Source: Bryobacteraceae bacterium (GTDB taxonomy: Bacteria; Acidobacteriota; Terriglobia; Bryobacterales; Bryobacteraceae). From it: a stretch of DNA of 64,000 nucleotides. The position numbers and the translations under genes are program-made. The notes under the pieces were generated by a model. The model was given only the letters and a program-made list of their open reading frames with translations, did no database searches and was not told the DNA's origin. The stretch lies in contig JAIEMJ010000005.1 in the NCBI GenBank assembly GCA_019752335.1, forward strand, positions 1 through 64,000, given 5' to 3'. Below, in pieces: positions 42,532 to 61,994 of this stretch (positions within the stretch are counted from its first letter, which is position 1; each line of letters starts with the position of its first letter).

Positions 42532-43521
42532 ATGGCTGTCTCCCAACAAAACGACGCCCCGATCGAGCGCGCCCGGCCGGTCGCCAGTCCGCCCCCGAAA
42601 CCAGTGGAGCGCGACGGTCTGCCGGCCGGCCGCATGTTGGACCTGCTCGCCAACGAGGCCATCACGGTTGACCCGGCCGACACCACGGCCCACCGGGATC
42701 GCCTACGCCAACTGTCGAAACGCGCCACCCATGAACTCGAAGCGGCCCTACAAGCCGAACTCCGCGCCCATCGGGACAGCGCCGAGAAAAAGGTGGAACA
42801 ACTGCGCCGTGAACTCGCCAGCACCGCCGACGCCATGCAGGAGTATGTCACCCGCTTTGCCGGGCAGGACCAGACTCAGGAGAAAGCGCTGGTCTCCGAT
42901 CTCGAGCGCCTCGCCACCTTGCGCAAGATGACGAACCTCAACCAGATTCAAGCTGGCCTCGATATTGTGCGCCAGAGTATCGCCGGCACCGTCGAACAGA
43001 TTCGCGCGCAGAACCAGGCCATCATCGCCCAACTGCGCGACGAGATCCGCACCCTGCACAAACGCCTCGACAGCCCCGAACGGCGCGAAACGAATGCCGG
43101 CAGTCTCGTCAACCGCGCCCCCTTCGAGCGCCGCATCCGCGCCAAGGTGAATGGCCACGAAGTCTTCTCGCTCTACCTCGTCCGCATCACCAACTGGAAG
43201 GACCTGATCTGCTCGCTCGACCAGGAGGAGGCACACACCCTGGTCAACAACGTCTCCGACAAGCTCGGCAAAATTCTGGGGCCGGACACCTTCGCTGGCC
43301 GCTGGTACGACGGTTACTTTGTGGCCATCATCGGCATCGACAAGCGCGCCGCCATGGAGGGCGCTTCGGACCTCGCGCAGCAGATCGCCGGAGTCTACCC
43401 CACCGGCCACGTCCCCGTCGCCATCCGCGTCCGCGTCGCCGTCGTCGACTACCTCGCCGGCCAGGACGCCGACCAGACGCTCAAGCGTCTCGATCAACTC
43501 ATCCGTGCTTTTGAAGGCTAA
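42532..43521 (+). CDS. Coiled-coil protein with degenerate GGDEF domain
   Basis: A 329-residue cytoplasmic protein. Residues 40-185 are long charged helices predicted to form coiled coil (DRLRQLSKRATHELEAALQAEL, EQIRAQNQAIIAQLRDEI). Residues 195-325 follow the GGDEF fold: LVNRAPFERRI takes the place of LTGLPNRRAFE, and YLVRITNWKDLICSLDQEEAHTLVNNVSDKLG the substrate helix. The signature strand reads GRWYDGYF (Arg257-Trp258-Tyr259-Asp260-Gly261) instead of GGDEF. It should not make cyclic di-GMP, and a binding or scaffold role is likelier. It converges with the DUF6599-like gene, overlapping by four bases. Confidence 0.7.
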   Translation: MAVSQQNDAPIERARPVASPPPKPVERDGLPAGRMLDLLANEAITVDPADTTAHRDRLRQLSKRATHELEAALQAELRAHRDSAEKKVEQLRRELASTADAMQEYVTRFAGQDQTQEKALVSDLERLATLRKMTNLNQIQAGLDIVRQSIAGTVEQIRAQNQAIIAQLRDEIRTLHKRLDSPERRETNAGSLVNRAPFERRIRAKVNGHEVFSLYLVRITNWKDLICSLDQEEAHTLVNNVSDKLGKILGPDTFAGRWYDGYFVAIIGIDKRAAMEGASDLAQQIAGVYPTGHVPVAIRVRVAVVDYLAGQDADQTLKRLDQLIRAFEG

Positions 43522-44471
43522 TCCAGATTCAAGCGCGTCATCGCGTCCAGCGATACCCCGCTCTCGCGCCGCCGTTGCCGCAAAAACAGGAACAGCGCAA
43601 CGGATCCGCCGCTCCCCAACCCCACCAGAATCAGCGCGCCCACCAGCCGGAAACTACCCAACACCAGGCCCGCGATATTCGGCATCTTCGTCGGCACCGT
43701 ATCGCTGTATTCGACCACGCTGTCGTACTTGAGCTTATCGAGCACCACCGCCGCATCGGCCGGCACGGGCGGTAGCGCCACGATCACCAGCGCCCCGGAG
43801 CGTTTGGCATGCTCGCCCGCGAATTGTTGAAAGGCCGGCAACTGCTGCCGTGCCATCGCATGATTGGCAAACCCCGCCACCGCCACCCGCAGTTCACCCG
43901 ACGGCGTCGGATAGCGGGCCACCAGGATTTCGGTGCCAAACTCGAACGCCGCGGTCTTCACCGGCAGATCCGGCAGAAAGGCGGCGATGCCTTGGGGCCC
44001 GGTGATGTAGCGCCGGGAGGTCGCGCCTTCGGGCAAGTAAATCGGTAACGCCGGCAACGCGCGATTCGTGTAGCCCGGAAAACGCTCCACCCAGAAGCCG
44101 ATCTCGCTCGCCGAGGGCCGGTAACTGCCTTCGAACTTCACCAGGTAGTTCCCCACCGCGGCCAGCGTAACGCCCTTAGCGGCGAGTCCGTTCTTCATCA
44201 AGGGAATCGGTGTGCCGCCCGCGGGCGCCTGCCAGTAAAACGCCGCCATCGGCCCTGTGGACTCCGCAAAGCGCCACGCCGTCGCCGTCAGTTGCTTCGC
44301 CCCGTTGGCGTAAGTCGCCGTCTCGCCTTCCGCGAAGCCGTATTCCTTCCACAACTCCGGCAGCACCGAGGTATCCGCCGGCCCGGCAGTCTTCTGCCGG
44401 TAAGCGTCAATCTCCCCCGGCCAAATCGCCGCCGGCGCCGCTGACGCCAGCGCCAACAGCAGTCCAACCAA
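43518..44471 (-). CDS. DUF6599-like exported protein with C-terminal TM helix
   Basis: The frame is open to 44660, but that extension runs through a palindromic repeat; the TTG at 44471 starts a good signal peptide (VGLLLALASAAPAAIW), giving 317 residues. The body has features of the DUF6599 class (ATAWRFAESTGPMAAFYWQAP ... LVKFEGSYRPSASEIGFWVE), and a TM helix near the end (LVGALILVGLGSGGSVALFLFL) is followed by RQRRRE. Function is unknown. On the minus strand it follows secA but is separated by the repeat at 44507-44594. Confidence 0.65.
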   Translation of the reverse strand: MVGLLLALASAAPAAIWPGEIDAYRQKTAGPADTSVLPELWKEYGFAEGETATYANGAKQLTATAWRFAESTGPMAAFYWQAPAGGTPIPLMKNGLAAKGVTLAAVGNYLVKFEGSYRPSASEIGFWVERFPGYTNRALPALPIYLPEGATSRRYITGPQGIAAFLPDLPVKTAAFEFGTEILVARYPTPSGELRVAVAGFANHAMARQQLPAFQQFAGEHAKRSGALVIVALPPVPADAAVVLDKLKYDSVVEYSDTVPTKMPNIAGLVLGSFRLVGALILVGLGSGGSVALFLFLRQRRRESGVSLDAMTRLNLD

Positions 44472-44506
44472 TGCCGAGCCGGTCCTATGCGGTCTCCGGC
44501 TCCTTA

Positions 44507-44594
44507 ACGAACCCCGACCGTGAGGGAGGGGATAGCTTCGCAAGCGCCATCGGTCAAACGGCCAAGCATCCCCTCCCTCACGGTCGGGGTTCGT
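44507..44594. repeat. Short palindromic element with perfect 27-bp inverted arms
   Basis: The left arm (44507-44533, starting ACGAACCCCGACC) is the perfect reverse complement of the right arm (44568-44594); the loop is 34 bases. A second copy with near-identical arms but a different, longer loop lies at 60531-60659. The element sits 36 bases upstream of the DUF6599-like start and 50 bases after the secA stop. It has no coding capacity. It could fold as a strong hairpin and act as a terminator, or be a MITE/REP-type mobile repeat. Confidence 0.85.
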
Positions 44595-44644
44595 CAGCGG
44601 GTGCAAGACTTTTGAGCAACCCAACGAATCATTCGAACTTGGCG

Positions 44645-47512
<2,868 letters not shown>

Positions 47513-47598
47513 GTTGAGCGCACTTCGCCTAATCATAGGCTAACACCGGCGGGCAACCTTGTCGTCCCCGCCGTTAGGACTACTGGTACCCCCACCCT

Positions 47599-53487: not shown

Positions 53488-53596
53488 CGGATCGTTAAGA
53501 GGAGTCAGCACGATGAATCGTGGGGCATCTGGGGCTGGCCGGTCGCCAAGCGGCTCGTTCCGGTGAAGCGGAAAACGTTCTTAGTTCAACTTCTAG

Positions 53597-53697
53597 CCCG
53601 CCGCGTGAGCGGCGGGGCACCGTGGCCGGTTTCCCGCGAAGACTCAGCAGGCGCGGCATAATTCGTGAAGCGCCCCGCCGCTTACGCGGCGGGCTAC
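53597..53697. repeat. Repeat element with two hairpins abutting the amidohydrolase stop
   Basis: Two hairpins, CCCGCCGC-GTGA-GCGGCGGG (53597-53616) and CCCGCCGC-TTAC-GCGGCGGG (53674-53693), flank a unit that begins GGCGGGGCACCGTGGCC and contains ATAATTCGTGAA. The second hairpin ends one base before the amidohydrolase stop codon (TAG, 53694-53696 on the minus strand). A degenerate copy of the same unit lies at 60707-60788. The gap 53488-53596 before it holds no recognised gene. Confidence 0.75.
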
Positions 53698-58659: not shown

Positions 58660-60486
58660 ATGCAACGACGCGATCTTCTTCTACTGCCTTCTCTCGCCTT
58701 CGCGCAGGACCCGCGCGAGATTACTACCGGTTCGGTGATCCCGGACGAGTTCTACGCCGACCAGCCCTACGTCGTCAAGACCGACGATGGCGCGTGGCTT
58801 TGCGTGATCACCACCGGACCTGGCCACGAAGGCGACGGTGGCCAGCATGTGATCAGCCTGCGCAGCCTGGACCGCGGCAAGACTTGGGAAAAGCCCGTCG
58901 ACGTCGAGCCCGCCACCGGCCCCGAAGCCTCTTACGCCGTCCTCCTCAAGGTCCCGAGTGGCCGCGTGTACGTCTTCTACAACCACAATACGGACCGCGT
59001 GAAAGAGGTGATTGCCGACAATCCGCCCTACGCCACGGGCTTCAACCGCCGCGTCGACAGCCTGGGCCACTTCGTCTGCAAGTACAGCGACGATCACGGC
59101 CGCACCTGGTCCGTGCAACGGTATGAAATTCCGCAACGCGACTTCGCCATTGACCGGAAGAATCCCTACGGCGGTAAGCTCAAGTTCTTCTGGACGGTCG
59201 GCCGGGCGTTCTCTCACCAAGGCGCGGGCTACGTGCCGCTGCACAAGGTGGGCGGCTTCGGCGAAGGCTTCTTTACTTCAAGCGAAGGGGTGCTGCTACG
59301 GAGCGCCAACATCCTCACCGAGCGCGACCCCGCCAAGCTTACCTGGGAGACGCTGCCCGAAGGCGACGTCGGCATTCGCACGCCTGCGGGGGGAGGGCCA
59401 GTCGCCGAGGAGCAGTCCTTCTCGATCCTCAGCGACGACTCCCTCTTCTGCGTCTACCGCACGATCGACGGCCATTCGGCGTGTACCTACAGTCGCAACG
59501 GCGGACGCTCCTGGGAAGCGCCGCAGTACATGCGTTTCGCGAGCGGACGCCTGATGAAGCACCCCCGCGCGGCGACCTTCGCCTGGCGCTGCGAGAACGG
59601 CCGCTTCCTGTACTGGTTCCACAACCACGGTGGCCGCTTTATCCGGGAGCATCCACGGCGGCGCACCATCGCTTACGAGGACCGCAATCCCGTCTGGGTC
59701 TGTGGCGGCACGGAAGTCGACGGGCCCACCGGCAAACGGCTGACCTGGTCAGAGCCCGAAGTCCTGCTCTACGACGACGACTCCATGATTCGCATGAGCT
59801 ACCCGGACCTGATCGAAGAGGGCGGCGAATACTACATCACGGAAACGCAGAAGGACGTGGCGCGAGTTCACCGGCTCGACAAGACGCTACTCGCGGGCCT
59901 ATGGAATCAGGCAAGCGCGAAGGGCGTCCCGCAAGCCGGCCTGCTTCTGCGGGTTCCCCGCGGGACTCTATCGGCGACGGCGCCCGAGTTTCCCATCTTT
60001 ACCAAACGTTCCCGCCGTTCGGACTATGGCCTGGAGCACACGCGGGCCGGCGTAACGCTGGACCTCTTCCTCGCACTGCCCGACCTGGCGGCTGGCCAAA
60101 CGCTGCTCGACAATCGCGACGAGCAAGGCAAGGGAATCCACTTGGCCACAGGCCCCAGCGGCACGCTCGTGATCGAACTCAGTGACGGCCGCGCCCGCTC
60201 GCGCTGGTCCTCTGACCGCAATGCGCTCTCGGCGGGCAAACTGCACCACGCGGCGATCATCATCGACGGCGGTCCGCACATCATTTCCTTCGTGGTGGAT
60301 GGCCTATTCCAGGACGGCGGCGACGAGCGCCAATTCGGTTGGGGCCGTTACCATCCGCAAACCCAATCGCTGAACGGAGCGCCCAAGCTGCGGCTCTCCC
60401 CCCATCTCCGCCGCACTCTCCTCTACGGCCGCGCGCTACGGACGTCAGAAGCCATCGCGTCCTTCCGTGCCGGCCCGGAAGCTTAG
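58660..60486 (+). CDS. Secreted sialidase-like BNR-repeat protein
   Basis: A 608-residue protein from ATG 58660 (MQRRDLLLLPSLAFAQDP), with an export-type N-terminus. Asp-box (BNR) repeats are present: SLDRGKTWEKP, SDDHGRTWSV and SRNGGRSWEAP, each with the S/T-x-D/N-x-G-x-T/S-W pattern of sialidase-type six-bladed propellers. The C-terminal 130 residues (GVTLDLFLALPDLAAGQTLLDNRD ... LHHAAIIIDGGPHIISFVVDG) resemble a LamG-type jelly roll. It is likely an exo-glycosidase or glycan-binding protein; the catalytic Tyr/Arg triad was not confirmed. The frame opens at 58384 but overlaps hflX. Confidence 0.8.
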   Translation: MQRRDLLLLPSLAFAQDPREITTGSVIPDEFYADQPYVVKTDDGAWLCVITTGPGHEGDGGQHVISLRSLDRGKTWEKPVDVEPATGPEASYAVLLKVPSGRVYVFYNHNTDRVKEVIADNPPYATGFNRRVDSLGHFVCKYSDDHGRTWSVQRYEIPQRDFAIDRKNPYGGKLKFFWTVGRAFSHQGAGYVPLHKVGGFGEGFFTSSEGVLLRSANILTERDPAKLTWETLPEGDVGIRTPAGGGPVAEEQSFSILSDDSLFCVYRTIDGHSACTYSRNGGRSWEAPQYMRFASGRLMKHPRAATFAWRCENGRFLYWFHNHGGRFIREHPRRRTIAYEDRNPVWVCGGTEVDGPTGKRLTWSEPEVLLYDDDSMIRMSYPDLIEEGGEYYITETQKDVARVHRLDKTLLAGLWNQASAKGVPQAGLLLRVPRGTLSATAPEFPIFTKRSRRSDYGLEHTRAGVTLDLFLALPDLAAGQTLLDNRDEQGKGIHLATGPSGTLVIELSDGRARSRWSSDRNALSAGKLHHAAIIIDGGPHIISFVVDGLFQDGGDERQFGWGRYHPQTQSLNGAPKLRLSPHLRRTLLYGRALRTSEAIASFRAGPEA

Positions 60487-60500
60487 CCCACCTGGTCAGG

Positions 60501-60699
60501 AGCTCAGAAAAAATCGGCAGACGTGCCCACAACGAACCCTGACCGTAAGGGAGGGGATGTTTGACCTGCGGGCATATTCCTGCATGTATTCAATTTTATT
60601 GGACTTGTTGACCGATGAGGCTCGCGGGGCCATCCCCTCCCTTACGGTCGGGGTTCGTTAAAAGGTCCAGGGCCGCAGGCAGCACATTTTTTCTGAGCT
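60501..60699. repeat. Nested inverted repeats (outer 14 bp, inner 29 bp)
   Basis: The outer arms AGCTCAGAAAAAAT (60501-60514) and its perfect complement (60686-60699) enclose an inner inverted repeat of 29 bp (60531-60559 and 60631-60659, one mismatch) around a 71-base AT-rich loop. The inner arms are nearly the same as those of the 44507-44594 element. The 299-base gap between the sialidase-like gene and the SelA-like gene contains this and the following repeat copy and no gene. Confidence 0.8.
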
Positions 60700-60706
60700 T
60701 CTCATA

Positions 60707-60788
60707 GGTGGGGCACAGTGGCCGCCGGGAAACCTCAGCAAAAGCGGTACAATTCGTGAACGTTGCCCTGCCGCTGTCGCGCGGGCTA
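60707..60788. repeat. Degenerate second copy of the 53.6 kb repeat
   Basis: This shares GGYGGGGCACMGTGGCC, CTCAGCA, GCGGYAYAATTCGTGAA and a terminal GCGGGCTA with the unit at 53611-53697. In both, the closing CTA is the complement of a TAG stop codon of a minus-strand gene. The hairpin arms are less well kept here. Confidence 0.7.
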
Positions 60789-61994
60789 GGCTAACGCTGA
60801 CTTGAGGACTTCGCGTAAGCGCCGGGCGACCACGGTGGCTTCGCCGGGCTGGAGCATCCACACTCCGACGACGGCCTTGTCCTGGTCCGTCGACGGGTTC
60901 AGTTCGATGGCGGGTTCGCCGTCGGCCAGTTGCTGCTTAAGGGCCAGCGGCGAGAGCTTAATCTTGGCCTGGTCCCACTGAATGTGAAGATGGGGCACGT
61001 GGTTGGCGATGGGCGGCACGTCGATTTTGGTGGTGACGCTGGGCAGGGACGCGACGGCGTCGCCGATCAGCTTGGCCTGCCGCTCCCAGTCCTTGTACTG
61101 TGCGACATGGTCGCGCTTGAGGTAGGCCTCGAGCGCCACCATCATGCTGACGAGTTCCTCTTTGTTCACCTTCATGCCGCGGGCGATGGAGTCGCTGTTG
61201 GGCGAAGTGTTCAGGCGCGCGGCTTCGATCAGGTCGCGGCGGCCGAGCAGGACGCCGGCGCTTTGCGGACCGCAGATGCCCTTGCCGCCCGAGAAGGTGA
61301 CCAGGTCGTAGCCGGTCTTCGGGTAGTTGAAGAGATTCTCGACCGGGGGCACGTCGGCGGAGCAGTCGGCGAAGGTGGGAATGCGGTGCTTCTTGCCTAA
61401 GGCGACCCACTCCGGGCCCTGAATCTGACCATCGGGCGAGAGGTAGTTGGCGAAGAACATCATGGCCGTTTTGCTGCTGACGGCGCGGTCGACGTCGGCG
61501 GCGGTTTCCACCTCCACCATGCGAATGCCCGTGGTCCGAGCGGCATGGTCATAGCCGTTGCGGTGAGCCTTCTGGATGATGACTTCGCTCTTGAGCCCGG
61601 TGAGGTCAGGGATTTGGCGGATAGCTTTCTGGTCCTTGCCCGTAAGACAGGCGGCGGTACCGCAGGTGATGGCGCCGGCGGCGCCACTCGTCACCATGGC
61701 GGCCTCTACCTTGAGCATTTCGGCGATCCTGGCGCCGACGGCGTCGTGCAGTTTGCCCAGGTGGACAAACTTTTTCGAGCAGGCCTCGTAGGCGGCGACG
61801 CATTCGGGCGCCATCAGCGAGGAGGTGAGCGCCGTGTAGGTGCCGGCGGCGTTGATGAAGGGCTTCACGCCGAGTTCGGCGAAGAAGTCGCGCTTGGCGG
61901 CCTGCGCCGCCTTACCGGCGGCGTAGGTGCTAAAGACACCGCCCAGGAGCGGCATGGCGGAGAGGCTTTGGATAAAGCTGCGTCGATGTGACAT
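60786..61994 (-). CDS. Exported SelA-like PLP-dependent protein
   Basis: A 402-residue protein of the SelA/DgaE-like PLP fold with an export-type N-terminus (MSHRRSFIQSLSAMPLLGGVFS) containing an RR pair. Motifs: FINAAGTYTALTSS, VTSGAAGAITCGTAACLTG, FADCSADVPPVENLF (PLP-contacting Asp in SelA) and VTFSGGKGICGPQSAGVLLG, where the Lys of SGGKG is the PLP lysine candidate. Family members include selenocysteine synthase and D-glucosaminate-6-phosphate ammonia-lyase. A periplasmic location would be unusual. It is 57 bases downstream of the TonB-dependent receptor gene on the same strand, suggesting uptake and processing of one ligand. Confidence 0.8.
   Translation of the reverse strand: MSHRRSFIQSLSAMPLLGGVFSTYAAGKAAQAAKRDFFAELGVKPFINAAGTYTALTSSLMAPECVAAYEACSKKFVHLGKLHDAVGARIAEMLKVEAAMVTSGAAGAITCGTAACLTGKDQKAIRQIPDLTGLKSEVIIQKAHRNGYDHAARTTGIRMVEVETAADVDRAVSSKTAMMFFANYLSPDGQIQGPEWVALGKKHRIPTFADCSADVPPVENLFNYPKTGYDLVTFSGGKGICGPQSAGVLLGRRDLIEAARLNTSPNSDSIARGMKVNKEELVSMMVALEAYLKRDHVAQYKDWERQAKLIGDAVASLPSVTTKIDVPPIANHVPHLHIQWDQAKIKLSPLALKQQLADGEPAIELNPSTDQDKAVVGVWMLQPGEATVVARRLREVLKSALA

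Follow-up and report, generated by a model that had tools for sequence, protein, structure and literature searches.

The two palindromes described here lie in a window of 64,000 nucleotides, which is the whole stretch of DNA that was analysed, from a genome of the Bryobacteraceae. The minus-strand gene secA, which spans 44645-47536 and has Pfam SecA domains, is followed just past its 3′ end by copy 1 (44507-44594), and a DUF6599 gene comes after that. Copy 2 (60531-60659) is flanked by a BNR-repeat gene, whose stop codon ends at 60486, and by a gene on the minus strand (60786-61994; SelA-family match), which has its 3′ end toward the palindrome. An ORF at 43518-44660 (minus strand) runs through copy 1 (LTNPDREGG...LPHGRGS), thus automatic annotation may misplace the start of the DUF6599 gene inside the repeat. 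The hairpins reported by an earlier sequence-only reading of the window were recovered: copy 1 has perfect 27-nt arms and a loop of 34 nt, while the 29-nt arms of copy 2 are 97% complementary and enclose a loop of 71 nt (Table 1). Folded as single-stranded DNA, the whole palindromes reach z-scores of -11.1 (copy 1) and -10.0 (copy 2) against shuffled sequences. Between copies 1 and 2, two positions are different in the left arm and one in the right arm. The loops had been described as unrelated, which turned out to be incorrect, since loop 1, compared with loop 2 in reverse complement, gives an alignment score of 10.5 (the maximum of 1000 shuffles being 10.6), and an inverted match (I1; 54 nt, 87%) spans arm and loop. 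Copy 1 has the opposite orientation to copy 2 and a shortened loop; by eye, it resembles the elements L045 and L071, which have fuller spacers in the same orientation, with an internal deletion. In G061, a genome of the same genus, the syntenic site beside secA lacks the interval around copy 1. This fits an insertion here, a deletion in G061 being the alternative, and copy 1 has probably decayed and lost part of its loop. Matches to the flanks of copy 2 fall on separate contigs of G061.

Table 1. Positions of the repeat features within the window.
Feature	Position	Strand	Remark
Interval missing at the syntenic secA-side site of G061	44467..44643		177 bp in alignment; MITE ends unrecognisable
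Copy 1 left REP arm	44507..44533	+	apical loop GTGA at 44520-44523
Copy 1 spacer	44534..44567		shortened, reversed relative of copy 2 spacer
Copy 1 right REP arm	44568..44594	-	loop TCAC at 44578-44581
REP2 doublet (GCCCGCCGC-GTNA-GCGGCGGGGC)	53594..53696		
Left half of host REP2 hairpin (GCCCACCTGG)	60486..60495	+	
Target duplication TCA, left	60496..60498		
203-bp MITE carrying copy 2	60499..60701		
Left terminal inverted repeat GGAGCTCAGAAAAAAT	60499..60514	+	
Copy 2 left REP arm	60531..60559	+	one C to T, unmatched
Copy 2 spacer	60560..60630		
Copy 2 right REP arm	60631..60659	-	
Right terminal inverted repeat GAAGCTCAGAAAAAAT	60686..60701	-	
Target duplication TCA, right	60702..60704		
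Right half of host REP2 hairpin (TAGGTGGGGC)	60705..60714	+	

Each arm consists of a foot followed by CCCCGACC-GTNA-GGGAGGGG, hereafter REP1. Its core GACCGTNAGGGAGGGG has 70 exact matches in the genome, which disposes of the possibility that only two copies exist, and 98 matches at up to 2 mismatches vs. 18 for a reversed control pattern; a 23-mer at up to 1 mismatch detects 76 arms in the genome and none in the control. We found 31 distinct inverted doublets, that is, the two-REP-plus-spacer arrangement by which REPINs and BIMEs are recognized, with spacers of 70-74 nt in 16 of the 31 and within 9-112 nt in the remainder. Using crudely called ORFs, 21 of 32 doublets fall outside ORFs, compared to 101 of 1140 random positions, and 11 fall inside; convergent placement was seen for 10 of the 21 intergenic doublets. 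The multicopy, mainly intergenic character expected by the sequence-only reading for a REP/MITE-like mobile element is thus well borne out. In a sample of 61 genomes of the family, our own genome counted, six contain the 23-mer at one mismatch, and G061 holds seven arms, none of which reads as an inverted doublet. This indicates an expansion that was recent or confined to the lineage.

The lone arm is predicted to fold as ......((((..((....))..)))).., in which a short foot is followed by a CCCC/GGGG basal stem, an internal loop of tandem GA/GA mismatches, a CC/GG apical stem and a GTNA tetraloop. This fold is weak (z -0.8), with 45 of 200 shuffles folding equally well. The foot in our genome is ACGA, one base off the CnGA motif published for class-3 TnpA_Y1-associated REP structures (PMC6006769). 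CnGA feet precede the REP1 arms of five other genomes (G008, G049, G054, G061 and G030), and ACGA feet also adjoin class-3 genes at two loci (L198 and L213).

Paired covariation between the two arms had also been claimed from the sequence, and it holds at one position, the N of GTNA, where copy 1 has G/C and copy 2 has A/T; the C to T change at 60540 in the left arm of copy 2 is unmatched in the right arm and leaves a T-G wobble. Across the family, loop N is equal between the arms of 23 of 31 doublets, where shuffling gives a mean of 14.8 and reaches this value once in 5000 shuffles (copies being counted as independent of descent), while matching over the whole arm exceeds shuffles by a z of 2.2 only. 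By hand count, the arms differ by at least one mismatch in 21 of the 31 doublets. Selection on the long arm-to-arm hairpin, which the sequence-only reading had proposed, comes down to a single loop position and was set aside as unproven; the arms are alike because they are two inverted copies of one REP. For Pseudomonas REPINs, a high frequency of compensatory changes has been reported (PMC3116915). A functional RNA or a terminator hairpin, maintained by selection on the long stem, would account for the very stable folds, the convergent placement and the equal loop N, and still we regard it as highly improbable: at gathering thresholds the only Rfam matches in the window are two tRNAs, copy 1 is missing at the syntenic site of the same genus, and neither the mismatched arms nor a spacing that ranges from 9 to 112 nt is what such a hairpin would lead us to expect.

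Many copies share longer flanks outside the arms, which terminate in GAAGCTCAGAAAAAAT. At up to 3 mismatches, such ends are found on both sides of 12 of 32 REP1 doublets (copy 2 included), on one side of 11 and on neither side of 9. Eighteen candidates with both ends (16 bp each) and a length of 124-251 bp were extracted by script. Of the 13 that carry REP1, eight measure 201-204 bp. At least 12 doublets ride in a MITE of about 203 bp. The 3 bp on either side are identical in 10 of the 18 two-ended rows, and 14 of the 18 have a TNA to the left as well as to the right. The same ends also bracket doublets of a second hairpin family, REP2 (GCCC..GTNA..GGGGC), in elements of about 195 bp (L128, L129 and L130). 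REP2 is represented by 38 exact matches of GCCCGCCGCGTNAGCGGCGGG in the genome, and its stem variants retain pairing (e.g., CCCATCGC/GCGATGGG and CCCACCTC/GAGGTGGG).

Copy 2 displays the layout GCCCACCTGG-TCA-[203 bp]-TCA-TAGGTGGGGC, which is a MITE inserted in a REP2 hairpin. Of 73 TIR ends, 47 are preceded by TNA (4.6 expected), and of the 26 TIR-like ends that lack it, some appear by eye to be a REP2-spacer motif. Among the 47 TNA-preceded ends, 37 abut a REP half cut at its GTNA loop, vs. 479 of 16,888 control sites; the host loop is REP2 for 31 ends and REP1 for six. When the flanks of an element were joined at any rung, a GTNA-loop hairpin (score of at least 5) resulted in 9 of 16 elements and none in 7, after two overlapping pairs (L055, 250 bp, and L064, 251 bp) had been dropped and the L037 pair re-drawn by hand. 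Joining at the innermost TNA with a score of at least 6 gave one in 5 of 18, vs. 106 of 8303 TNA sites in a control made without choice of rung. For part of the elements, the joined flanks and ends show that the MITE inserts at TNA, with a preference for the GTNA loops of REP hairpins, and duplicates the TNA. The BNR-repeat gene stops with TAG (60484-60486), which leads straight into the REP2 half (TAGCCC), and the letters TAG likewise come just before the REP2 halves in L044 and L070; REP2 may thus supply stop codons.

One might instead take the element as a plain REPIN that is moved by a class-3 TnpA alone, with the GAAGCTCAG ends and REP2 halves being conserved flanks of older BIME mosaics that were copied along. 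The nine doublets with no MITE end and the 11 with only one speak for this, as do 20 REP1-arm stretches from six other genomes, in which we found no MITE end. We nevertheless consider it improbable, since it does not explain why the TNA is duplicated with a matching N, why the same ends surround REP2 doublets, why insertions also occurred in REP1 loops (the six ends above), or why extra rungs carry the same N. Duplication of TNA is moreover unlike an IS200/IS605-type HUH enzyme, which is not known to make target duplications.

The MITE would rather be moved by a DDE-type transposase. IS1031 shows a TNA target habit. An IS5/IS1031-like autonomous partner was considered; a search of the genome with one Pfam family, PF13586, gave no match. 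Inspection by eye of the 100 TIR matches listed, out of 122, likewise brought up no pair at IS distance that was convincing. In five contigs (C2, C6, C10, C29 and C30), a MITE-like end lies roughly 55-145 bp from the start, and the repeats thus seem to break the assembly.

Some ends carry more than one TNA. An extra rung was found at 20 of 47 ends vs. 7.9% of control sites, and the N of the first rung is equal in 19 of these 20 vs. 35.5% in the control; gaps between rungs read G..C in 20 of 33 cases (hand count). The pattern suggests that the ladders, TNA-(2-3 bp)-TNA, are footprints of repeated insertion and excision, the MITE appearing to leave 2-3 bp and a second TNA when it excises. Replication slippage between the duplication TCAG and the GCTCAG of the MITE end is a less likely, though quite conceivable, origin: GCTCAG sits within the MITE end and several rungs are TCAGC repeats, but TAA, TTA and TGA ladders retain their own N, as the first rungs show, which slippage from GCTCAG would not be expected to produce.

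The sequence-only reading had also called for a REP-type transposase. Class-3 TnpA_Y1 is known from Solibacter usitatus, where about 600 copies of associated REP-like structures are reported (PMC6006769). We gathered 44 class-3 loci from contigs of other genomes by scan; their records are labeled as Acidobacteria-type (32), Planctomycete-type (10) and others (2) by hand count. The REP1 core lies within 600 bp of the gene in 17, 25, 27 and 30 of the 44 loci at up to 1, 2, 3 and 4 mismatches, respectively, and at up to 4 mismatches it flanks both sides in 25 loci and is missing from 14. The density of REP1-like cores is 1.89 per kb near class-3 genes vs. 0.10 beyond 1 kb, a 19-fold difference. 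A relaxed scan, requiring only the foot CNGA, a purine and the loop GTNA, gave 60 matches in 34.6 kb near the genes, 53 of them with at least 5 of 6 stem pairs and coming from 20 of the 44 loci, vs. 27 matches in 133 kb far from them, of which 6 had such pairing. Both scans supersede an earlier hairpin scan at score 9, whose near matches were confined to 10 of 44 loci, since a hairpin with the tandem GA mismatch scores lower.

It is within each arm, across genomes, that the strong covariation is found. Among 44 distinct paired arms, the first of two stem pairs is GC in 28, CG in 9, GU in 4 and AU in 3, and the second is CG in 28, GC in 10, AU in 3, GU in 1 and other in 2. Both-side stem changes number 30 vs. 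7.0 ± 2.1 in shuffles, and 93.6% of cells are paired vs. 34-55% when slid, both figures coming from arms preselected for pairing with related rows counted separately. Genome G020 carries two class-3 genes with adjoining REP1-like arms and doublets (GAGCCGCGACC-GTNA-GGGAGCGG). In four aligned proteins encoded by REP1-flanked genes, H87, H89, Y147 and Q152 are invariant (HUH and Y----Q), and Pfam Y1_Tnp matches three of the four, the fourth (L126, from G020) being without a Pfam match. The core at 30 of 44 loci, on both sides in 25, and the compensatory stem changes together suggest that the doublets work like the class-3-type REPINs of Solibacter (PMC6006769). The expected transposase class is thus flanked by this REP in other genomes, while none so flanked was found in our own.

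The own genome (assembly 97% complete, 55 contigs) has 20 Y1_Tnp matches. A protein search identified three closest class-3-like homologues, namely L098 (C53, intact, YILDGQ), L103 (C4, frameshifted, YILDEQ) and L107 (C15, broken, Y replaced), and the more distant L112, L114 (YVVEGQ) and L115; they fit the class-3 signature given in PMC6006769 to varying degrees. The three closest adjoin hairpins of REP2, not REP1: the C4 gene is surrounded by four doublets, the C53 gene has a hairpin to its left and to its right, and the C15 gene has a single one next to it. The four doublets at the frameshifted gene (L103/L123, C4:36980-37449) are very similar and lie within longer repeated flanks. No REP1 arm was found near the class-3 homologues in L118-L123, and the core is absent from 5.5-6.5 kb at L119, which is internally shortened and shares 53-55% identity with the G020 proteins whose genes REP1 flanks, as well as at its relative L118 (41-42%). 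The other Y1_Tnp genes (L088-L107) were considered as REP1 cognates and rejected, as no REP1 doublet adjoins them and the 20 loci offer no more than a single arm, which is separated from the L088 gene by about 1.4 kb. Seven of them (L096, L097, L099, L100, L102, L104 and L106) are related RDFRPEQLYAITQRGN-like genes, several of them broken, and their loci hold no full REP1 or REP2 match. REP1 may thus be an orphan here, carried by the MITE.

Taken together, we consider it quite likely that both palindromes are REPINs whose REP type is the recognition structure of class-3 TnpA_Y1 (HUH, Y----Q), and that they spread partly inside a TNA-inserting MITE. The flanking in other genomes is directly observed, while recognition and cleavage by the enzyme are inferred. 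The doublets have reached about 30 places in the genome in addition to single arms; copy 2 is such a MITE in a REP2 hairpin. More tentatively, at somewhat below even chances, the whole could be a self-seeding nested system, in which a cut-and-paste MITE captured class-3 REP doublets, GTNA loops became its preferred sites and the ladders record its insertions and excisions; as the REP loops are the MITE's own landing sites, every insertion would add targets.

Several known systems are comparable. Class-3 REP structures share the occurrence in Acidobacteria, the position beside class-3 HUH Y----Q genes, the weak atypical hairpin, the short 5′ foot and the high copy number (PMC6006769); our elements differ in the foot and in having no flanked class-3 gene in their own genome, and the core sequence and GTNA loop spelled out here may already be listed there. 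Pseudomonas REPINs are likewise intergenic inverted REP doublets that form one long hairpin with a variable spacer, but their REP sequence and RAYT class differ, and some doublets here are MITE-borne (PMC3116915). The GTAG and CGTC super-families comprise tagged palindromes and dimers too (PMC3733652), but our foot, ACGA, equals neither tag. IS1397, ISKpn1 and IS621 are mobile DNA that lands in REP palindromes (PMC1525189), whereas the element here is a MITE of about 203 bp that duplicates TNA and carries REPs which are targets in turn. A limited literature search returned no report of MITEs in REP loops with footprints, or of REPINs in Acidobacteria.

For class-3 TnpA_Y1, which is little studied, REP1 provides a defined and testable candidate substrate. 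REPs are said to lack conservation from one species to another (PMC6006769), while the REP1 core is nearly unchanged across Acidobacteria- and Planctomycetes-labeled genomes and one Armatimonadetes-labeled MAG. Two mobility systems meet at one place, a TNA-duplicating MITE and REP hairpins whose loops serve as landing pads, and the scars might allow past excisions to be read in a bacterium.
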